Shown in pieces: positions 6,094 through 32,372 of a DNA stretch of 64,000 bases. Below the pieces are notes generated by a model. It made no database searches, was not told the origin of the DNA, and was given only the letters and a program-made list of their open reading frames with translations. The translations under genes were made by a program, and so were the position numbers. Position 1 is the first letter of the stretch; every line of letters begins with the position of its first letter. Origin of the DNA: Niveibacterium microcysteis (lineage in GTDB: Bacteria > Pseudomonadota > Gammaproteobacteria > Burkholderiales > Rhodocyclaceae). The stretch is from the NCBI RefSeq assembly GCF_017161445.1, contig NZ_CP071060.1:3844001-3908000 (forward strand), read 5' to 3'.

Positions 6094-6699
6094 ATGCTGC
6101 AACTCGTTTCACGGGCCCTCGCGGGCCTGCTCTGCGCGCTGGCCGTGAGTACGGCCGTGCGCGCCGAAGAACCCGCCGCCGAGGCACCGTTCTACCAGCG
6201 TTGGTGGAACACCGCGGTCGACGAGACGACCGATCTCGCGACCACCGGCGACTGGAACATCTTCCTGCCGACCAAGATCTACCACCTGCCGATGGCCTAC
6301 ACGGCCGAGCAGCGCAACCGCTACAACGAAAGCCCGATGCCGGCCTTCGGCTTCGGCCGCGGCAAGTACACCGAGAACGGCAACTGGCATGGGCTGTACG
6401 CCATGGGCTTCCGCGATTCCAACGACAAGCCGTCGTGGATGGCGGGCTACCACTACTCCTGGTTGTGGGATATGCCGCGCCTCGAAGGTGCCTACTATGG
6501 GCTGGGTGTCACCGCCTTCATCATGGGGCGTGAGGACTACGGCAACTACACCCCCTTCCCCGCTGCGCTGCCGACCTTCACGCTCGGTTTCAAGAAGGTC
6601 GCGCTCGAAACGGCCTTTGTGCCTGGCGGCAAAGGGAACGGCAATGTCTTCTTCATCTGGTTCAAGCTCAATCAAGCGGAAAGGCCCAGTCAGCCATGA
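6094..6699 (+). CDS. pagP: PagP-like lipid A palmitoyltransferase
   Basis: A 201-residue protein with a clear signal peptide (hydrophobic 5-20, cleavage near AVRA). The mature part matches PagP, the outer-membrane 8-strand barrel that moves an acyl chain from phospholipid to lipid A. KIYHLPMAY supplies the catalytic His, RYNESPMPAFGFGRG and NGNWHGLYAMGFRDS supply the Asp-Ser pair, and NGNVFFIWFK is the last strand. The start at 6094 follows the purH stop by 11 nt. An upstream in-frame extension lies in purH and was discarded. The stop overlaps the purD start (ATGA), so PagP and PurD are translationally coupled. The acyl length preference cannot be told. Confidence 0.85.
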   Translation: MLQLVSRALAGLLCALAVSTAVRAEEPAAEAPFYQRWWNTAVDETTDLATTGDWNIFLPTKIYHLPMAYTAEQRNRYNESPMPAFGFGRGKYTENGNWHGLYAMGFRDSNDKPSWMAGYHYSWLWDMPRLEGAYYGLGVTAFIMGREDYGNYTPFPAALPTFTLGFKKVALETAFVPGGKGNGNVFFIWFKLNQAERPSQP

Positions 6700-18849: not shown

Positions 18850-21129
18850 CTAGACCCCGGTATGCCAAGCGGCGCCCTTGCGGCGCCGTTTTTCTTCGTA
18901 CAACACGCTGTCGGCGCGCGCGAGCAGATCCTCCAGCGAAACCGGCACGCCCGGCGGCGACACTACATAGCCAAGGCTGCAAGCCAGTGGGAAGGGCAAG
19001 TCCTGGCTGGCCCGCTCGAACAAACGGTAGATCCGTTCGCGCATCGCGCTGAGTGCGTCCGGGTCGGCGTTCGCAGTCAGCACGACGAACTCGTCGCCAC
19101 CAATGCGGCCGATCAGGTCGGCCGAGCGGAAACCGCGACGCAGCACTTCGCCGGCTTGGCGGATCGCAACGTCACCGGCTGCGTGGCCATGGCGGTCATT
19201 GATCGGCTTGAGCCCATCGAGGTCGGCGAAGATCACTGCGGTCGCAAGGCCATCCGCACTCAGCATGTCCGCACGCAGGCGCGCCTCGGCGAGGAAGCCG
19301 CGTCGGTTCAGGAGCCCTGTCAATTCGTCGCGATGCGCGATGTCAGCCAGCTCACGCTGGCCCTGCCGCGCCTGTGCGAGGTCGCTGCGTAGCGCATCGC
19401 GCGCGGCGGCGAGCTCCGATACCAGCAACGACGCCTTCAAGGCCGACGACACCTCGTCACGAATCGTTTCCCACGGCCCACCCGCAACCGGGTCGACGCT
19501 GAACACGATGAAGCCGAAGTGCTCGGCGCCGTGGAAGACCGGGTAGACGATCAGCGAAGTGCTATCCGCCGCCAAGGCCCAGGCATCGGCCGGCAGCACG
19601 TCGTGCGTACGGAAGCGTTCGCCGTTCAGCGACGGGCGCTCACGCCCGCCGATGAAGGCGTAAAGCAGGCGCGCCTCACCCGGCAGGTCGAAATCGTCGA
19701 GGCTGGAAATGCGCGCCTCACCGCTGTAGAGCGCAATGCAGCAGGTATCGAGACTGAGATCCGCCAGCGCCTCCGAGAGGTGTTCCAGGAGCTTCTGCAA
19801 GTCGAAGGTGGCGATACGTGTTTTGAGCAGGTCGCGAAAAGCCAGCGCGCGTTCGCTGTGCAACCGATGGCGCGCTTGTTGTGCGACGTCCTGCAGCCCC
19901 GCCAGCGCAATCTGCGCCTGTTGCAGCCAGCGGGCAACCGCGGCCCAGGCCTCCGGCGCCAGGCCGCGCGGCTCGATCAGCCAGCGCTGCGCCGCGACCA
20001 GCAACGCCTGCAGCCCGTAGACATGGCCCTCCGCCGCAAGCACGTCGCGCGCAACGGTCTGCACCGCCGCCAGCAGCGGCTGAAAGTCCTGTTCCGCCAA
20101 GGCTCTCGCGAGGCCCTGCTCGACCAGAAGGCTCGCTGCCCGATAGTTGGCCTCGTGCTCAGGCGCCACCGCCAGTTCTTCCAGCATGCCGGCAAGCCGC
20201 ACATCCAGTTGCGCAGCGAAGGTCTCCGGTCGGGCGTAGAAGCCACCGCAGCCACAGGATTGCCGGCGCACCAGCCGTGTCGGCACACGCGTCAGCGGCG
20301 TGACCTCCGCGCCGCCGATCCGCTCGATCAGTTGCGCGACGGATGCGCGCGCCAGCGCATAGTGCGACTGGTTGATGGTCGTCAGCCCCACGCCAAGGCG
20401 GCCCGCGGCGAGGATGTCGTCGAAACCGCCGAAACGAAGCTGCTGCGGCACATGCAGGCCATGATCCACCGCGCAGGCCATCGCCCCCAAGGCCATGTCG
20501 TCATTCGCGGCGACCACCGCATCAACCGTAGCGCCGCGCTCCAGCAGTGCACTCATCGCTGCGCGCCCGCTCGCCTGCGTGAAGTTGCCCTGCAACAACA
20601 GATCGGGATCGACCTCGATCCCCGCATCCGTGCAAGCGTCACGCCAAGCAGCCAGTCGTGCCTCGGCCTCCGCTTGCCCTGCCGGGCCGGCAATCATCGC
20701 AATGCGGCGGCAGCCATGCTCCTCGATCAGGTGCGACATCAGCGCACGGAATCCACCGTGGTTGTCGTTGACGACGCTGGGCACGACCTGCGACGCAAAC
20801 CCCAGGCAAAGCGTCGGCACCTTGGGCAGAGTGGCGAGGAAGTTGTCGAGCTGCGTTGCGTTCAAGTGGTACTGCAAGGTGGTGCCGATCACCAGCAGGC
20901 CGTCGAAGGCCGTGGCGTCAGGCAAGCGGAATACCAGATTGAACTGCCGGTCGAATTCGGCCGACGCCGCCGGCGGATGCCCCGGCAGGAAGACCGTGCG
21001 CGCGCCGCGCAGGCGCGCCTCGTCGATGATGCCGGCAACCAGACGCAGCGCAACAGCGGTATCAATATCAGCCGCGAGAATGCCCAGCGTGAGCGGACGC
21101 TGTCGGGGGGTGGGGGCTTGTGCGTTCAC
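18850..21129 (-). CDS. Diguanylate cyclase with LacI-like ligand-binding and GAF-like domains
   Basis: A 759-residue cytoplasmic protein with no signal peptide. Residues about 10-290 look like the effector domain of LacI-family repressors (LTLGILAADIDTAVALRLV at the start, then GFDDILAAGRLG and TRLVRRQSCGCGG) without a DNA-binding head. About 290-430 is helical. About 430-580 is GAF-like. The C-terminus is a GGDEF domain with intact GGDEF (about 677-681) and an RxxD inhibitory site (RSAD) five residues upstream. It should make cyclic di-GMP in response to a small molecule, perhaps a sugar. It is 36 nt downstream of a LytTR two-component pair on the same strand, so co-transcription is possible. 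Confidence 0.88.
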   Translation of the reverse strand: MNAQAPTPRQRPLTLGILAADIDTAVALRLVAGIIDEARLRGARTVFLPGHPPAASAEFDRQFNLVFRLPDATAFDGLLVIGTTLQYHLNATQLDNFLATLPKVPTLCLGFASQVVPSVVNDNHGGFRALMSHLIEEHGCRRIAMIAGPAGQAEAEARLAAWRDACTDAGIEVDPDLLLQGNFTQASGRAAMSALLERGATVDAVVAANDDMALGAMACAVDHGLHVPQQLRFGGFDDILAAGRLGVGLTTINQSHYALARASVAQLIERIGGAEVTPLTRVPTRLVRRQSCGCGGFYARPETFAAQLDVRLAGMLEELAVAPEHEANYRAASLLVEQGLARALAEQDFQPLLAAVQTVARDVLAAEGHVYGLQALLVAAQRWLIEPRGLAPEAWAAVARWLQQAQIALAGLQDVAQQARHRLHSERALAFRDLLKTRIATFDLQKLLEHLSEALADLSLDTCCIALYSGEARISSLDDFDLPGEARLLYAFIGGRERPSLNGERFRTHDVLPADAWALAADSTSLIVYPVFHGAEHFGFIVFSVDPVAGGPWETIRDEVSSALKASLLVSELAAARDALRSDLAQARQGQRELADIAHRDELTGLLNRRGFLAEARLRADMLSADGLATAVIFADLDGLKPINDRHGHAAGDVAIRQAGEVLRRGFRSADLIGRIGGDEFVVLTANADPDALSAMRERIYRLFERASQDLPFPLACSLGYVVSPPGVPVSLEDLLARADSVLYEEKRRRKGAAWHTGV
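18871..18896 (+). terminator. Probable ppc terminator inside the 3' end of the convergent gene
   Basis: GGCGCC (18871-18876), loop CTTGC, GGCGCC (18882-18887), then GTTTTTCTTC. It reads as an intrinsic terminator on the plus strand but lies within the last codons of the convergent diguanylate cyclase gene. A second GC hairpin (18833-18849) without T tract lies between the two genes. Confidence 0.5.
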
Positions 21130-24488: not shown

Positions 24489-25379
24489 ATGGAGGCCTCG
24501 CTCGCCGCGGCTGTCGAAGAGGCTGCACGCGGCGCGCTCGGCACGGCGTTCCGCGTCACGAGCGCCGAACCCGCCTCCGGCGGCACACATCGGAATTGGA
24601 TCGTCGGGAGCGCGGCGCGGCGCGTCTTCGTGAAGACCGGCGCAGCGACGAACCTTGCGCTGTTTGATGCTGAGGTCGATGCGCTCTCCGCCATCGCCGC
24701 GACGGGCGCGATCCGCACGCCGGCGATAGTGGCCAGTGGCGCGAGCGAAGCGCATGCATTCCTGATTCTCGAACACCTGCCGCTGCGCCCAATGCAAGCA
24801 GCCGACGCCCCTCGCTGCGCAGCGGCACTGGCGCAGCTACACAGCACCGTCGGCGAACATTACGGCTGGCGGCGCAACAACTTCATCGGCCAATCGCCGC
24901 AAGACAATTCACCACGCGCCGACTGGCCCGCATTTTTTGCACACCAGCGCCTTGCGCCGCAGTTCGCCGAAGCCGCGCGACGCGGTTACCGTGGCGACCT
25001 TCAGAACCACGGCGAACGCATCATCGACAAGATCGGCGCATTCTTTCTGGAGCGCCGCCCCGAACCGGCACTGCTGCATGGCGACCTCTGGGCCGGCAAC
25101 ATCGCGGTAACCGCAGAGGGAGAGCCGGTCGTTTTCGACCCTGCGACCTACTTCGGCGATCGAGAAGCCGATTTTGCAATGAGCGAACTCTTCGGCGGCC
25201 TGCCCGAGCGCTTCTACCTCTCCTACATGCAAGCCGCGCCGCTCGCCGAGGGCTACCCGCAACGACGCACGCTCTACAACCTCTATCACATGCTCAACCA
25301 CCTCAACCTGTTCGGCGCGAGCTACTTGCGCCAGGCTGAGCGCATGGCGCGCGAACTGTCGGAATACCTGCGACGCTGA
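24489..25379 (+). CDS. Fructosamine kinase family protein
   Basis: 296 residues, aminoglycoside-phosphotransferase fold. The family motifs are SGGTHRNWIV, WRRNNFIGQSPQDNS, the catalytic LLHGDLWAGN, FDPATYFGDREADFAMSELFGG and YNLYHMLNHLNLFG. Bacterial homologues phosphorylate ketosamines (for example ribulosamines or fructosamines on protein), starting repair of glycated proteins. It is tightly linked to argH (5 nt), but no metabolic link is obvious. Confidence 0.93.
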   Translation: MEASLAAAVEEAARGALGTAFRVTSAEPASGGTHRNWIVGSAARRVFVKTGAATNLALFDAEVDALSAIAATGAIRTPAIVASGASEAHAFLILEHLPLRPMQAADAPRCAAALAQLHSTVGEHYGWRRNNFIGQSPQDNSPRADWPAFFAHQRLAPQFAEAARRGYRGDLQNHGERIIDKIGAFFLERRPEPALLHGDLWAGNIAVTAEGEPVVFDPATYFGDREADFAMSELFGGLPERFYLSYMQAAPLAEGYPQRRTLYNLYHMLNHLNLFGASYLRQAERMARELSEYLRR

Positions 25380-25586: not shown

Positions 25587-25608
25587 CATGACCTCCAGGA
25601 TCGAGACC

Positions 25609-26235
25609 ATGTCGAACCACGAAAACATGCCTAGCGCTGACCATCCCGCCCAGTCACCCGACCGTGCAGAATCGGGCGTATCTGAAGCACGGCGCCGGTT
25701 GCTGGTACGCGGCGGCATGGCCACCGGCCCGATCATCCTGACGCTGACCAGCCGGCCCGTCCTTGGCGGCCTGAACCCGGGTGAGTGCATTTCGCCCTCG
25801 CAAACGCTCTCGGGCGCGCTGAGTCACCGCGGCACCAAAGTCGGAACCTGTAACGGGCGCTCGCCCGGTTACTGGAAGAACTGCAGCGCCGGCAACTGGC
25901 CGATTCCGCAATCGACGCCCTTCCACTCGATCTTCGTTGTCGGCACGATTGCCGGCAGCCGCCTGTTCAATCCAGACGGCTCGATGATGACGATGCTTCA
26001 GGTGCTCAATCTGCTGGGCTATGAAGATCCGTACAAGGTCGCGTTCCACTGCATCGGCGCCTACCTGAACATCCTCAAGGGCCTGATCGATCCGAAGGCA
26101 CTCACCGCCGAAGGCGTGATCGCAATCTGGCGCGAATGGGCGCTCAACGGCAAGTACGTGCCCTATGCTGGCGCGACGCCGTGGACCGGCACCGACATCG
26201 TCAATTACCTCAAGAACAACTACATCTCGCCGTAA
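25609..26235 (+). CDS. Secreted hypothetical protein with SPGYWKN motif
   Basis: A 208-residue protein with no confident family function. An ARRRLLVRGG segment (27-36) followed by an uncharged stretch resembles a Tat-type export signal, though it lacks the usual Phe. The mature part has CNGRSPGYWKNC (81-92), a motif recurring in secreted bacterial proteins, and four cysteines (about 60, 81, 92, 148), so disulfides are likely. ATG 25609 is preferred because AGGA lies 8 nt upstream. ATG 25588 adds seven residues and abuts the inverted repeat. It is the first gene of a cassette with PqqD-like, HprK-like and nucleotidyltransferase genes and may be its substrate or product carrier (inference). Confidence 0.75.
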   Translation: MSNHENMPSADHPAQSPDRAESGVSEARRRLLVRGGMATGPIILTLTSRPVLGGLNPGECISPSQTLSGALSHRGTKVGTCNGRSPGYWKNCSAGNWPIPQSTPFHSIFVVGTIAGSRLFNPDGSMMTMLQVLNLLGYEDPYKVAFHCIGAYLNILKGLIDPKALTAEGVIAIWREWALNGKYVPYAGATPWTGTDIVNYLKNNYISP

Positions 26236-26248
26236 GCGCGGGCCCCGC

Positions 26249-26503
26249 ATGCAGGACGCCAGTCCACGTTGGGTCAGTCACCACTGGCCCGACGGTTCCG
26301 TTTTCTACGATCGCCAGACCGGCGCGACGCACGCGCTGTCGCCGCTCGCCGCGGAAGTGCTCGCCTTGCCAGCCGCCGCGCGCTACGATGCGGCGCAGGC
26401 AGCGGACGCCATCGCCGGTTTGCTATCGCTGCCGTGCTCGCCTGAACTCACCGACAACGTGTCTCAGGCACTTGACCAACTCCGCCGCATCGAACTGATT
26501 TGA
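26249..26503 (+). CDS. PqqD-like protein of the HPr-rel-A type system
   Basis: 84 residues. The WVSHHWPDGSVFYDRQTGAT start, LSPLAAEVLALP and the C-terminal QALDQLRRIELI resemble small PqqD-type winged-helix proteins that bind peptide substrates in RiPP pathways. Here it precedes an HprK-related kinase, the context of the PqqD-like proteins named for the HPr-rel-A system (from recall). The start at 26249 is preferred over the in-frame extension to 26165, which lies inside the previous gene. The stop overlaps the TTG start of the kinase gene. Confidence 0.75.
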   Translation: MQDASPRWVSHHWPDGSVFYDRQTGATHALSPLAAEVLALPAAARYDAAQAADAIAGLLSLPCSPELTDNVSQALDQLRRIELI

Positions 26504-27426
26504 TCGCTACGCTCCGCGTTACAGACCTGAACGAAGCAGATCTGTCGGCGCGCCTGTCCGGCGACGGTCTCTGGCTCACCAGCGGCCCCCTGACACTGCA
26601 CATCCGCAGCCGCGAGCCGGTCGTGTGCAAAGCCGTGCAGACGCTTTACGCTGATCACGCGCTGGCGCCAAACGACTTTGCAGATTTCCATGTGCAGGTG
26701 GGTCGCGTCTCCGGACTCCGCGCCTGGATACGGCCGCAGGTTCAGTTTCACCTTGACGGCCGCACACCGTTCAAACCGCTGCCACACGCGCAGAGCTTTG
26801 CGATGCTCGAGTGGGGCATCAACTGGTGCATCGCAACCTATTGCCACCAGTTTCTGGTGATCCACGCTGCGGTCGTGGAACGCAACGGCTTGGCCGCCAT
26901 CCTTCCAGCCCCCCCGGGCTCTGGCAAAAGCACGCTGACCGCTGCGCTGATCCAACGCGGCTGGCGTTTGTGCTCGGACGAACTGACCTTGCTCGACCCG
27001 GTTGATGGGCGCGTCGTCGCGCTGGCCCGCCCGGTGAATTTGAAGAACAGTTCGATCGACATCATTCAGCAGTTCGAGCCGTCGGCAAGTTTCGGCCCCG
27101 AATGCCCCGACACCCACAAAGGCCGCGTCGCGCACTTGCGGCCACCGCGCGACAGCGTTGCCCGAATGCATGAACGTGCGCTACCCCGCTGGATCATCTT
27201 CCCGCAGTGGGAGGCGGGTGCAGCGCTGACGATGAAACCCTTGCCGCGAGCGGAAGGCTTCATCCAGCTGGCGGAGAACGCCTTCAACTACAGCATGCTC
27301 GGCGAGACTGGCTTCCGCACCTTGGTCGACACGGTGGATCGAAGCGACTGCATCGCGCTGCGCTACAGCCGGCTGGACGAAGCAATTGCCGCCTTCGACC
27401 GCCTCGCTGACGAGGCCCGGCCATGA
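26500..27426 (+). CDS. HprK-related kinase (type A)
   Basis: 308 residues. Walker A APPGSGKST at about 137-145 and CSDE at 158-161 resemble the kinase core of HPr kinase/phosphorylase; the N-terminal 110 residues are distinct. No HPr gene or PTS protein is in the window, so the phosphate acceptor is unknown. The start is TTG at 26500, overlapping the PqqD-like stop (TTGA), and the stop overlaps the next gene (ATGA). This chain of overlaps argues for fixed stoichiometry. The family name is by recall of the HprK-related kinase A family. Confidence 0.8.
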   Translation: MIATLRVTDLNEADLSARLSGDGLWLTSGPLTLHIRSREPVVCKAVQTLYADHALAPNDFADFHVQVGRVSGLRAWIRPQVQFHLDGRTPFKPLPHAQSFAMLEWGINWCIATYCHQFLVIHAAVVERNGLAAILPAPPGSGKSTLTAALIQRGWRLCSDELTLLDPVDGRVVALARPVNLKNSSIDIIQQFEPSASFGPECPDTHKGRVAHLRPPRDSVARMHERALPRWIIFPQWEAGAALTMKPLPRAEGFIQLAENAFNYSMLGETGFRTLVDTVDRSDCIALRYSRLDEAIAAFDRLADEARP

Positions 27427-28547
27427 TTCGCGACGCCCTGCTGCCACTGCTGCGGGCGCCCGAATGCGCCGCGCGACTTTCGCTACGCGAGTGGGATGAC
27501 GTGATCCGCCAGGCGCGCAACGCGAACCTGAGCGCTCGCATCGCCGCCGATCTCGAAGCCCACGAGTTGCTCGACGCGGTACCGCCCGGCCCGCGCCAAC
27601 ACCTCATCGCCGCGCGTGCGGTCGGCGCTCGGCAACGCATTGCTTCCTTGGCCGAGATAGATCGGGTACGCCGCGCGTTGGACGAATGCGGCATCCGCCT
27701 GGTTTTGCTGAAGGGCGCGGCTTATCTCGCGGCCAACCTGCCGGCGTCACGCGGTCGGGTTTTCGGTGACATCGACCTGCTGGTGCCTAAAGCTGCATTG
27801 CCGGACACCGAGTCGACGCTGCTGCGCCACGGCTGGATCAGTTCGCATCTGAACGCCTATGACCAGCGCTACTACCGCCAGTGGATGCACGAGCTGCCGC
27901 CGCTTCGCCACGTCAACCGCGGCAGTTCGCTGGATGTGCATCACAACATCCTGCCGCTCACCGCACGCCATCCACCTGACCCCGCGCTGCTGCTGGATCA
28001 GGCCGTGCCGGCCGCCGCCACGCCAGGCGTCTGGGTGCTGGCACCGGCCGACATGGTGTTGCACAGCGCCTGCCACCTGTTCCATGAAGGCGAACTGGAC
28101 AACGGCATGCGCGATCTCGTGGATCTGGACGGCCTGCTGCGACACTTCGCAAGTCAGGGCGCTTTCTGGCAATCGCTGGAAACGCGCGCTATCGCGCTGA
28201 ACCTGCAACGCCCGCTGCGCTATGCCTTGCACATGTGCTCGGTGATGCTTGCCACGCCAATCCCGCCGACGACACTCGCCTTCGGTGGCCGTTGGCCCAG
28301 CGATACGCGCGAGCGCCTGCTCGAACAGCTCTACCTGCGGGGGCTGCGGCCAAACGACCCAACCGCTGGCGACGCATGGACACCACTCGCACGTCAGCTT
28401 CTATACCTGCGCGGGCACTGGCTGCGGATGCCACCGCATCTGCTGACGGCGCATCTGGCGCGCAAGGCGTGGCGCAACTGGAGCGGCCACAGTGACGATG
28501 ACGAGGCGCCAGCGCCCGACGCCATCAAACCCGATCGACAACTGTAG
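27423..28547 (+). CDS. Nucleotidyltransferase family protein (NTP_transf_5-like)
   Basis: 374 residues. VLLKGAAYLAA (94-104) and GDIDLLVPK (115-123) form the catalytic start of the uncharacterised nucleotidyltransferase family, with DVHHNILPL further on supplying the third acidic position. The remainder is mostly helical. It would transfer a nucleotide to an unknown acceptor. Last gene of the cassette, coupled by ATGA to the kinase gene and followed by a strong terminator. Confidence 0.82.
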   Translation: MIRDALLPLLRAPECAARLSLREWDDVIRQARNANLSARIAADLEAHELLDAVPPGPRQHLIAARAVGARQRIASLAEIDRVRRALDECGIRLVLLKGAAYLAANLPASRGRVFGDIDLLVPKAALPDTESTLLRHGWISSHLNAYDQRYYRQWMHELPPLRHVNRGSSLDVHHNILPLTARHPPDPALLLDQAVPAAATPGVWVLAPADMVLHSACHLFHEGELDNGMRDLVDLDGLLRHFASQGAFWQSLETRAIALNLQRPLRYALHMCSVMLATPIPPTTLAFGGRWPSDTRERLLEQLYLRGLRPNDPTAGDAWTPLARQLLYLRGHWLRMPPHLLTAHLARKAWRNWSGHSDDDEAPAPDAIKPDRQL

Positions 28548-28553
28548 GCCGCA

Positions 28554-28589
28554 AACGAAAACGGCGACCCGAAGGTCGCCGTTTTCGTT
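28554..28589. terminator. Bidirectional intrinsic terminator
   Basis: AACGAAAACGGCGACC (28554-28569), loop CGAA, GGTCGCCGTTTTCGTT (28574-28589): a perfect 16-bp stem with A-rich and T-rich sides. It serves the plus-strand cassette and the convergent grxD-side transcript. Confidence 0.9.
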
Positions 28590-28601
28590 CAGCAGCGCCA
28601 A

Positions 28602-28928
28602 TCAGGCGCTGACGATTCCCGCTTCCTGCAGCATCTGCTGAAGCTCGCCGGACTGATACATCTCTTTCATGATGTCGCAGCCACCGACGAATTCTCCCTT
28701 GATGTAGAGCTGCGGAATCGTCGGCCAGTTTGCGTATTCCTTGATGCCTTGGCGAATGTCGTCGTCGGTCAGGACGTTCACCGACGCATACTGCGTAACG
28801 CCGAGCAGCTTGAGGATCTGCGCAGCGGTCGCGGAGAAACCACACTGCGGGAACTGCGGCGTGCCCTTCATGAAGAGCACCACCGGGTTCTCGGTGACCG
28901 TCTGGTGGATGATGTCTTGCACGCTCAT
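28602..28928 (-). CDS. grxD: Monothiol glutaredoxin Grx4-type
   Basis: 108 residues. The active site C-G-F-S (29-32) in TPQFPQCGFSATAAQIL, WPTIPQLYIKGEFVGGCDI and the overall length identify a CGFS glutaredoxin, which binds a glutathione-ligated 2Fe-2S cluster and passes it on or works with BolA proteins. It stands alone with its own terminator, and a near-consensus IscR site lies 24 nt upstream, which fits its Fe-S role. Confidence 0.96.
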   Translation of the reverse strand: MSVQDIIHQTVTENPVVLFMKGTPQFPQCGFSATAAQILKLLGVTQYASVNVLTDDDIRQGIKEYANWPTIPQLYIKGEFVGGCDIMKEMYQSGELQQMLQEAGIVSA

Positions 28929-28952
28929 GTAAATTCCTTCGGCTAAGTCAGA

Positions 28953-28977
28953 ATACCTGACTGATTCAATCAGGTAT
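28953..28977 (-). promoter_or_regulatory. Type 1 IscR-like operator upstream of grxD
   Basis: ATACCTGA (28953-28960), nine bases, TCAGGTAT (28970-28977): a perfect 8-bp inverted repeat. The 25-mer fits the published type 1 IscR consensus (ATASYYGACT, RWWW, YAGTCRRSTAT) at 24 of 25 positions by my count. It lies just upstream of the grxD start, where IscR could repress when Fe-S clusters are plentiful. Confidence 0.7.
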
Positions 28978-29018
28978 GTAGTCTAGAAAAAACCGCGCAC
29001 CGGGTCAAATCAAGCCGT

Positions 29019-29846
29019 TCAAACCGGCCGTCGTCCCAGCGTCACGCGGTCGTTGTCGCCCAGATCCTTCAGCGTCACGCAATCGGTATAGCCCGCCGCC
29101 AGCATCAATGCGCGCACGGCATCGCCTTGATCGTAGCCATGCTCGAACAGCAACCAGGCGCCCGGCTTCAGGCAAGCCCAGGCTTCGGTCGTGATGATGC
29201 GGATATCGCTGAGTCCGTCCGGGCCCGAGGCCAGCGCGCCGGGCGGCTCGAAGCGCACGTCGCCCTGCGCGAGATGCGGGTCTTCGGCGGCCACGTAAGG
29301 CGGGTTGGACGCGATCAGATCGAAAACCTCGCCTTGCACCGGCGTGCACCAGGGCCCTTCAAACCAGCGTACCTGAGCGCCCAGCCGTTCCGCGTTCTCG
29401 CGCGCAACCGACAGCGCGGCAGCGGAGACATCGACTGCCGACACCTGGGCATGCGGCGCTTCCAGCGCAATCGTGATCGCAATTGCGCCGCTGCCGGTGC
29501 CGAGATCGAGCACGCGGGGGGCACCGTCCGGCAGGTGTAGCAGCGCTTGTTCGACAAGTAGCTCGGTGTCAGGGCGCGGGATCAGCACCGCCGGTGACAC
29601 ACGAAAGACGCGGCCATAGAACTCGCGTTCGCCCAGCAGATAGGCAACCGGCTCCCCGGCTTCACGCCGAGCAATCCAGTCGACAAAACACTGCGCCGCA
29701 ACGTCGCTCAGCGGACGCTCCGGAAAGCCGACGATCGTGGCTGCGCGCTCCCCGCTCGCTTCGCGCAACAGCAACCGCGCTTCGGAAGCCGGCACTCGCC
29801 CGTGCGCCAAGGCCAGCGCGTCGCCCAGCGTTACGGGAAGGCTCAT
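29019..29846 (-). CDS. prmC: Release factor glutamine methyltransferase
   Basis: About 275 residues. It methylates the GGQ glutamine of release factors. The SAM site LDLGTGSGAIAITIALE and the catalytic SNPPYVA are present, with RPDTELLVEQALLHL upstream. Its substrate RF1 (prfA) is encoded immediately upstream. The start at 29846 (MSLPVTLGDAL) is preferred over 29864. Confidence 0.95.
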   Translation of the reverse strand: MSLPVTLGDALALAHGRVPASEARLLLREASGERAATIVGFPERPLSDVAAQCFVDWIARREAGEPVAYLLGEREFYGRVFRVSPAVLIPRPDTELLVEQALLHLPDGAPRVLDLGTGSGAIAITIALEAPHAQVSAVDVSAAALSVARENAERLGAQVRWFEGPWCTPVQGEVFDLIASNPPYVAAEDPHLAQGDVRFEPPGALASGPDGLSDIRIITTEAWACLKPGAWLLFEHGYDQGDAVRALMLAAGYTDCVTLKDLGDNDRVTLGRRPV

Positions 29847-29925
29847 TGGTGGGCGCCTCGCCAATCGTATGCGCAGCGCACCGCGGGACGGTTATCGCTC
29901 GCTCGCGCTGGCCAGCCCTGCGCGC

Positions 29926-31008
29926 TCACACAACCTCGGTCAGCGCGGCCAATTGTTCGGCCTGGTGTTCGCGCGTGAGGGCGTCGATCAGTTCGTCCAG
30001 ATCGCCTTCCACCACCATGTCCAGCTTGTGCAGCGTGAGGTTGATGCGGTGGTCGGTCACGCGGCCCTGCGGGTAGTTGTAGGTGCGGATGCGTTCTGAG
30101 CGGTCGCCGCTGCCGATCAGGCTCTTGCGATGCGCAGCCTGCTTGCTCGCCTGCTCGCGGACTTGCGCGTCCTTGATCCGCGCCGCCAGCACCGACATCG
30201 CCTGAGCCTTGTTGCGATGCTGTGAGCGGTCGTCCTGACACTCGACGACGATGCCGGTCGGCAAATGGGTGATGCGCACCGCGGAATCGGTTTTGTTGAT
30301 GTGCTGGCCGCCGGCGCCGCTGGCGCGGAAGGTGTCGATACGCAGATCGGCCGGATTGATCTCGACGTCAGCAACTTCGTCGACTTCCGGCAGGATCGCG
30401 ACGGTGCACGCGGAGGTGTGGATGCGGCCCTGCGTTTCAGTGACCGGCACGCGCTGCACACGATGCCCGCCGGACTCGAACTTCAACTTCGAGTAGGCGC
30501 CGTCGCCGACGATGCGCGCGATCGCCTCCTTGTAGCCTCCGAGATCCGATTCATTCACCGACACGAGTTCGACGCGCCAGCCCTGGCGTTCCGCATAGCG
30601 GGTGTACATCCGCAACAGCACGCCGGCAAACAGCGCAGCCTCTTCGCCGCCGGTACCCGCGCGCACTTCGAGGAACAGGTTGCGGGCGTCGTTCGGGTCC
30701 TTCGGCAGCAACGCGAGTTGCAGGTCGGCATCCAGGCGCGCGATCGCGCCGCGCGCCGCATCGATCTCTTCCTGCGCAAAGGCCTTCATGTCGGGATCGC
30801 CCAGCAGATCCTGCGCGGCCCGCAGGTCGCCTTCGGCACGCAGGTAGTCGCGCCACAGCGCCACCACCGGCGAAAGTTCAGCATGCTCGCGGTTCAGGCG
30901 ACGATAGCGATCGAGGTCGCTGGTGACATCCTCGCTGCCCAGCATCTGGTCGAGTTCTTCCAGACGGTGCACGAGCTGTTCGAGTTTTTCCCGGATACTG
31001 GGTTTCAT
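29926..31008 (-). CDS. prfA: Peptide chain release factor 1
   Basis: 360 residues, full length. It recognises [25 protein letters not shown] carries the GGQ loop that triggers peptide release and is the target of Prm[21 protein letters not shown] is the adjacent family signature. It lies between hemA (39 nt upstream) and prmC in a widely conserved order. Confidence 0.97.
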
Positions 31009-31047
31009 GGTGTCTCGGCAAAGCGGCGGCGCGTGCCCCGCTCAGCG

Positions 31048-32298
31048 CTAGGAACGATCGAGATTGAACAGGCGACGCACGAACTCGGCAGCTTCGCCGA
31101 CCTGCTCGCCGTCCGCGCGGTTGAGGAATTGCGTCGGGCCATGCATCAGCTTGTTGGTGATGCCCTGCGACAGCGCTTCGAGCACGGCCTGCGGATCTTC
31201 GCCGCGCGCCAGGCGCGCCATCGCGCGCTCGAGTTCGGCCTGCCGAACTGCGTCGGCGCGGCTGCGCAGTGCGCGGATCGCCGGCACCGCATCGCGCGCC
31301 TCGACCCAGTGCAGGAAGTGGGATACCTGATCGGTGATGATCGCCTCAGCCTGCACCACGGCCTGCTGGCGCGACTCGACGCCCGCTTCGACGACCTGCG
31401 CAAGATCATCGACGGTGTAGAGGAACACATCGTCGAGCTTTGCGATTTCGGCTTCGATATCGCGCGGCACAGCCAGGTCGACCATCACCATTGGGCGATG
31501 GCGGCGTTGCTTGAGCGCACGTTCGACCATGCCCAATCCGATGATCGGCAAGGGGCTCGCGGTGCAGCTCACGACCACGTCGTAACGGCCGAGGACGTCC
31601 GGCAAGGCGTCGAGCGTAAGGGCGTCGCCCGCGAAACGCGCGGCAAGCGCCTCGGCACGGGCCGGCGTGCGGTTGGCAATGGTCAGCTGGCGCGGGCGGC
31701 AACCGGCGAAGTGCGCAGCGCAAAGCTCAACCATCTCGCCCGCGCCGACGAACAGCACGCGCTGCTCTTCAATCGTCGAGAAGATCCGCTCTGACAAACG
31801 CACCGCGGCGGCGGCCATCGACACGATGTTGGCGCCGATCGCGGTGGTCGAGCGGACTTCCTTCGCGACCGAGAAAGTGCGCTGGAAGAGCTTGTGCAGC
31901 AGCGTGCCAAGCGTGCCGGCCTCTTCGGCCAGCCGCGCTGCCTGCTTCATCTGGCCGAGGATCTGCGGCTCGCCCAGCACCATCGAATCGAGGCCGGACG
32001 CAACGCGGAACATGTGCCGCACGGCGGCGTCGTGCTGCAGCGTGAAGAGATGCGGCGAAATCTGCGACAACGCAACGCGGTGGAAATCCGCCAACCAGTC
32101 GGCCACGGCTTCGGGCGTTTCGGTCGCACAGTACAACTCGGTGCGGTTGCAGGTCGACAAGATCGCCGCCTCGCGCACCGGACGTTCGCGTACCAGGCGT
32201 GACAAAGCCTCCGACAGCCCGTCGGGCTGAAAAGCCACCTGTTCACGCAGGGTGACCGGCGCGGAATGGTGATTGAGGCCTAGCGCAAACAGTTGCAT
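31048..32298 (-). CDS. hemA: Glutamyl-tRNA reductase
   Basis: About 416 residues. First committed step of C5 heme synthesis, glutamyl-tRNA to glutamate semialdehyde. The N-terminal [30 protein letters not shown] with the catalytic Cys, [19 protein letters not shown] and an NADPH-binding [15 protein letters not shown] are present. The start at 32298 gives the canonical [14 protein letters not shown]. Together with hemF and hemCDXY this window carries most of the early and one late heme step. Confidence 0.96.
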
Positions 32299-32372
32299 CG
32301 AATCGGGCTGGGTCTGGAACCGTGTCAATTACATCACTGGGGCCCGGCGGGGGAGAAGCTCGCCCAGCCGAT

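Follow-up and report, generated by a model that had tools for sequence, protein, structure and literature searches.

An HprK-related kinase cassette in Niveibacterium microcysteis and a leader-bearing protein as its putative substrate

A four-gene cassette centered on an HprK-related kinase is located in a 64,000-nucleotide stretch of the genome of Niveibacterium microcysteis (NCBI RefSeq assembly GCF_017161445.1, contig NZ_CP071060.1, positions 3,844,001 to 3,908,000). This whole stretch is called the window here, and coordinates are those of the window unless a locus is named. The genes, designated A to D, and the terminator behind them are the following.

25609..26235, + strand: A, proposed substrate protein of 208 amino acids; ATG start; no Pfam or NCBIfam family match
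26249..26503, + strand: B, PqqD-like peptide chaperone of the RiPP recognition element (RRE) type; TIGR04353 41.3 bits, cut-off 35
26500..27426, + strand: C, HprK-related kinase A; TTG start; TIGR04352 385.7 bits, cut-off 200, E 1e-115
27423..28547, + strand: D, nucleotidyltransferase-fold enzyme; ATG start; PF14907 193.4 bits, cut-off 31.2, E 6e-57
28554..28589, no strand assigned: hairpin terminator, flanked by D and a convergent gene of the glutaredoxin family

A and B are separated by 13 nucleotides, whereas B and C overlap in TTGA and C and D in ATGA. The terminator, with a stem of 16 bp, is common to D and the convergent gene; it was not listed by a pattern scanner but is evident on folding, as the stretch 28545-28600 reaches -34.3 kcal/mol (z -7.4) and none of 200 shuffles is as good. 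A second in-frame ATG of gene A lies at 25588, and the start is placed at 25609, where the closest homologue (P0001) begins. Coordinates, folding, and alignment thus bear out what an earlier sequence-only reading had described, namely four genes with overlaps, a 13-nucleotide gap, a strong terminator, and an intact P-loop, and the cassette is confirmed as real and closely packed. The host genome (4.85 Mb, 99.6% complete) encodes one TIGR04352-type kinase and one match to A. A named relative of A comes from Niveibacterium, and the nearest named relatives of C include genomes and metagenome-assembled genomes (MAGs) of Uliginosibacterium and Niveibacterium.

In hidden Markov model searches, B and C both exceed the curated cut-offs of the HPr-rel-A families (NCBI TIGR04353 and TIGR04352). 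The records of these families carry no substrate and no literature on them was found among open-access sources; protein A, its Tat-type leader, and the two serine classes described below are added here. The earlier claim that these families have no assigned biochemistry has to be qualified, for biochemistry has been published on related sets of kinase, RRE, and transferase, those of phosphorylated lasso peptides and of linear polyphosphorylated peptides (LPPs). The P-loop of C (PPGSGKST) is intact, and in an alignment of 154 kinases, from which L071, L220, L236, and L272 were left out for the length of their open reading frames (ORFs), residues G140, G142, K143, and T145 are found in all 154 and S144 in 153. 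H122, D160, and E161 are likewise present in every aligned kinase, and C aligns with HPr kinase/phosphorylase at the histidine, the P-loop lysine, and the first catalytic aspartate. Residues D116, D118, and D171 of D are invariant in 66 aligned proteins, which together with a fold comparison indicates an intact nucleotidyltransferase core.

Three segments of protein A are distinguished.

25690..25767, + strand: A residues 28-53, twin-arginine (Tat-type) leader RRRLLVRGGMATGPIILTLTSRPVLG, from column conservation in 99 A proteins
25786..25824, + strand: A residues C60, S64, S68, and S72, cysteine-serine ladder with candidate phosphosites, from column conservation in the same 99
25861..25881, + strand: SPGYWKN motif of A (residues 85-91), with which the cargo domain begins; 61 of the 99 have SPGYW-like letters

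The alignment consists of 99 distinct proteins, 98 from the surveyed loci and the window's own, the A proteins of L079 and L095 having been left out as duplicates of class-sample ones. In the leader, R28 (98%), R29 (100%), T45 (80%), L46 (78%), S48 (85%), and P50 (76%) are conserved, followed in the ladder by C60 (96%), S64 (94%), S68 (95%), and S72 (89%), and on the cargo side by C81 (89%), G83 (86%), P86 (81%), W89 (81%), and W97 (88%). A twin arginine, a hydrophobic stretch, and a V/A-x-A/G (AxA-like) ending are present as judged from the alignment, and the leader reads as a signal for the twin-arginine translocation (Tat) pathway, which A is predicted to use; tatC is present in the host genome. 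The strict pattern C-x3-S-x3-S-x3-S occurs in 34 of the 99 proteins, where shuffling leads one to expect 0.3; 85 have a looser ladder and 90 have C-x2-4-[ST]-x3-S downstream of the leader, all of these counts taking in related sequences. Since SPGYW-like letters are absent from 38 of the 99, the motif that had named the protein is not its invariant part. The SPGYWK cargo domain makes up the C-terminal region of large exported proteins as well (L154, L156, L157, L180, and L181), which have neither leader nor ladder in the stretches read. Judged from the alignments, the recurring features of A are the leader and the cysteine-linked serine motif, and SPGYWKN seems to be only one cargo. No family was recognized among 106 members of the A alignment, where four families had one stray match each (E 0.001-0.01), and no solved structural relative of A was found. 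AlphaFold confidence is high for residues 81-208, mostly below 50 for residues 11-50, and about 65-69 for the serine arm (residues 51-80).

A protein of this type accompanies the kinase with great regularity. A TIGR04352 kinase above cut-off is encoded by 22 of the 229 genomes in a class sample, and examination of all 22 surroundings showed an A-type leader protein next to the kinase in each. By blastp (E<=1e-3), a relative of A was found in 16 of the 20 class-sample loci beyond the window and L164, and in the other four and L164 the adjacent protein has the same kind of leader in front of a different cargo. Among named loci, A is present in 79 of the best 80 of 591 by kinase, a choice biased toward near relatives. 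Pooled, these first-set loci have A in 99 of 100 cases and D in all 100 (some as fragments at contig ends), downstream and on the same strand in 97. A Nitrosospira MAG (L098) retains kinase and D without detectable A or B and may be a copy in decay or put to a new use. In four loci (L085, L109, L113, and L129), A lies downstream of D, and their kinases form one clade (support 100/99). Scored by genome, the A profile matches 20 of the 22 kinase-positive genomes but only 6 of the remaining 207 (Fisher p 2e-21); four of these six match the cargo part of the model only, and the other two (G101 and G184) have leader matches beside HprK relatives below the cut-off.

For an out-of-sample test, an A profile trained on the 80 named loci and L032-L051 was frozen and applied to a phylum sample of 398 Pseudomonadota genomes, 61 of which have a TIGR04352 kinase above cut-off. 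Omitting G000 and G107, which were already in the set, and G391, whose match starts at a contig end, 58 new loci remained, none with a kinase identical over 230 amino acids to an earlier one. The frozen profile detected A in 44 of the 58, these being its only matches among 5,885 ORFs; each begins no more than 1,500 bases upstream of the kinase gene, and one of them (L230) is on the opposite strand. With a second profile, whose training set drew in part on these loci, the number rose to 51. B is undetected in six of the seven loci without A and in six of the 51 with it. As a protein of type A is conserved together with the other three genes, the absence of co-conservation that would have told against the sequence-only reading was not found, though its SPGYWKN letters are often missing and other cargos occur.

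Beside HprK relatives below the cut-off, short proteins of 56-149 amino acids with a similar SRRxFxKKAAYxAPVVLTL-type leader were observed, and they may represent a branch of this system with peptide-sized members.

L165:4576-4749 and 6212-6391; L166:6446-6709; L175:7042-7212: short leader proteins beside sub-cut-off HprK relatives
L177:1964-2236; L178:2741-3190: further short leader proteins of this kind

The genomic surroundings also bear on whether C might be a paralogue of HPr kinase that targets HPr or another protein of the phosphotransferase system (PTS). C is weakly similar to the true HprK family TIGR00679 (18.2 bits) and the genome has three HPr-domain loci, but this score is far below the cut-off of 240, the Asp-Asp pair of true HPr kinase/phosphorylase is Asp-Glu in C, and a genuine HprK above cut-off (316.4 bits) is encoded elsewhere in the genome. 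Neither HPr nor HprK had a match within the window, where other PTS genes were not searched, and the recurrent neighbor of the kinase is a leader protein and not HPr. The sequence-only reading had regarded HPr as an unlikely target for lack of PTS genes; this argument holds for HPr and HprK in the window and fails genome-wide. HPr is nevertheless a highly improbable target, because a separate true HprK exists and the cassette carries a dedicated protein of its own.

Most of the phylum loci keep the leader and have a different cargo, and many of their precursors carry a serine motif at the other end. Of the 51 phylum precursors, 39 have C-[WFYLMAHNV]-x-S-[FLIVYM] among their last 45 residues, compared with 0.49 expected, and 37 fit the narrower [ST]-C-[WFY]-x-S-[FL]; these counts, too, take in related sequences. 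In all 39 of these class II precursors the two leader arginines are retained and a cysteine follows shortly behind the leader. On the kinase tree the serine classes fall into clusters, with 11 changes needed compared with 43.5 in shuffles (none of 200 as low), and one clade of 39 kinases contains 34 of class II, four without A, one unclassified, and none of class I, the class with the motif behind the leader. In this tree the first-set class I rows were halved, the bootstrap had not settled, and row L236, an ORF fused to D, is misaligned; L037, whose C-terminal serine lacks the cysteine, and L164 were labeled class II by hand, and L227 and L249, which carry both motifs, were entered as class II. 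The five class II members of the first set had formed one kinase clade.

The positions of the two motifs mirror published phosphosites. According to the LPP report (PMC13381572), the LPP gene set includes a discrete RRE, an HprK-like kinase, an NTP (nucleoside triphosphate) transferase, and a precursor with a conserved N-terminal leader, and Ser3 of LppA, directly behind the leader, is phosphorylated, as might be the serines at that place in A. The window's cassette resembles this set, down to a precursor with a variable C terminus and overlapping precursor lengths (35-200 amino acids for LPP and 208 for A), its RRE being a weak match. In contrast, LPP clusters also contain a signal-peptidase-like leader peptidase, an MsbA-like exporter, and YxxP leaders, whereas the window's cassette has a twin-arginine leader and a predicted folded cargo domain and occurs mostly in Pseudomonadota. 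LPP and paeninodins are stated there to be restricted to Bacillota, and a term search of the main text gave no Proteobacteria, Pseudomonadota, Tat, signal peptide, or TIGR04352. Lasso systems of the paeninodin, pseudomycoidin, and SyanA type share a B1/RRE protein, an HprK-like kinase, a nucleotidyltransferase, and a conserved serine acceptor, as described in PMC9266682, PMC8498205, and PMC5067487. Lasso kinases phosphorylate the C-terminal serine of the linear precursor, which the C-terminal serine of class II recalls, PsmN adds a hexose by acting on the phosphorylated serine (PMC9266682 and PMC8498205), and PadeB1 binds its own leader with nM affinity (PMC5067487). The window's precursor differs in being long and predicted to be exported, and no lasso cyclase (macrolactam) or B2 protease was found among the proteins scanned at the cassette and its flanks, the rest of the genome not having been searched.

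These precedents also bear on an alternative in which A is the substrate and D the main modifier, nucleotidylating a serine or another residue, with C providing a phosphorylated donor or regulation. Nucleotidyltransferase-fold enzymes can modify proteins directly, and the constant presence of D with an intact core would agree with this. We consider it quite unlikely, however, as the precursor itself is what homologous kinases phosphorylate, as PsmN works on a serine already phosphorylated, and as serine class clusters on the tree of the kinase.

We favor, with a probability of roughly two in three, the reading that the cassette is a self-contained phosphoprotein-modification operon, similar to those of ribosomally synthesized and post-translationally modified peptides (RiPPs) and acting on a substrate of protein size that is exported by Tat. 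B, as an RRE resembling the lasso B1 proteins, would bind the N-terminal leader of A, which would also be the Tat signal peptide, and present A to C. The kinase would phosphorylate, perhaps polyphosphorylate, at least one of S64, S68, and S72 on a flexible arm behind the leader, and D would then extend the serine-borne phosphate by a nucleotidyl or (phospho)sugar moiety. Modified and folded, A might leave through Tat, a general signal peptidase might cut the leader near residue 53, and a C60-C81 disulfide may form outside. Leader binding, phosphosite, chemistry of D, use of Tat, and the final role of A are predictions from sequence in this scheme, and it draws on the observed families, conserved catalytic residues, gene linkage, conservation of leader and serines, exchange of cargo, clustering of serine classes, and presence of tatC. 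The proposal of the sequence-only reading that the three enzymes modify the first protein is strengthened by co-conservation and is recast in terms of a leader-and-serine substrate; no support was found for modification of a small molecule carried by A.

Several observations weigh against this reading. B remains below the Pfam PqqD cut-off (13 bits compared with 23.4), and the best matches of its profile, although lasso B1 proteins, are weak (E 0.0025 and 0.0068). The leader of A does not conserve the [Y/W]xxP motif to which lasso and LPP RREs bind (proline in 29% of 99), and the window's A has no tyrosine or tryptophan three positions upstream of P41; in class II leaders the proline of this column is found in 76% of 39. 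C has a glutamate in place of the second aspartate reported for lasso kinases. Deletion of lppN caused no change in the LPP study (PMC13381572), and the step assigned to D is therefore a guess. The operon has no dedicated leader peptidase or exporter, as neither a signal-peptidase-like peptidase nor an MsbA-like transporter was found among A-D, the gene before A, and ten further flanking proteins of the window. A is missing from 7 of the 58 phylum loci, 6 of the 99 A proteins of the first set and 5 of the 51 from the phylum sample have no recognized serine motif, and class II takes 8 changes on the wider kinase tree and is thus not a single clade. The serine ladder could also serve another role, in folding or as disulfide context with C60.

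Alternatively, C and D might act on a target other than A, for example an exopolysaccharide or lipid-carrier intermediate with a link to XrtA/PEP-CTERM, A being an accessory or binding protein that is exported along with it. Of the 22 kinase-positive genomes, 18 have XrtA above cut-off, as do 27 of the 207 others, and EpsB_2, PrsK, PrsT, and dTDP-glucose dehydratase families, identified from one representative each, lie near 12, 12, 13, and 13 of 100 loci. The XrtA association takes no account of phylogeny, however, the ten further flanking proteins scanned in the window are of housekeeping or regulatory kinds, and cargos are exchanged while leader and serine motif stay, as expected of a substrate, so that this explanation seems unlikely. 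With A as the substrate, the co-occurrence with XrtA suggests that it is perhaps a surface or matrix protein.

Behind the cassette, genes of the glutaredoxin, PrmC, RF-1, and glutamyl-tRNA reductase families occupy 28602-32328 on the minus strand. Families like those flanking the cassette in the window flank it in other genomes as well, PrmC (again identified from one representative) near 26 of 100 cassettes, as if at a recurrent insertion site. A fructosamine-kinase family gene (PF03881, E 7e-90; 24489-25379) lies directly upstream on the same strand, and one window protein (18850-21129) contains both a LacI-like periplasmic-binding domain and a GGDEF domain.

With these results, two named but functionally blank families and their PF14907 partner are given a concrete candidate substrate, leader, and residues. 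If the proposed modification is true, the phosphorylation logic of lasso peptides and LPPs would extend from peptides of Bacillota to folded, exported proteins of Pseudomonadota. A broader, tentative idea, to which we give somewhat less than an even chance, is a phylum-wide and so far unrecognized phosphorylation of proteins for export, in which the leader would be both RRE tag and Tat signal, serine motifs at either end of an interchangeable cargo would co-evolve in position with the kinase, and the nucleotidyltransferase would cap the phosphate with a nucleotide or sugar. In that case, bacteria would export capped phosphoproteins through Tat.
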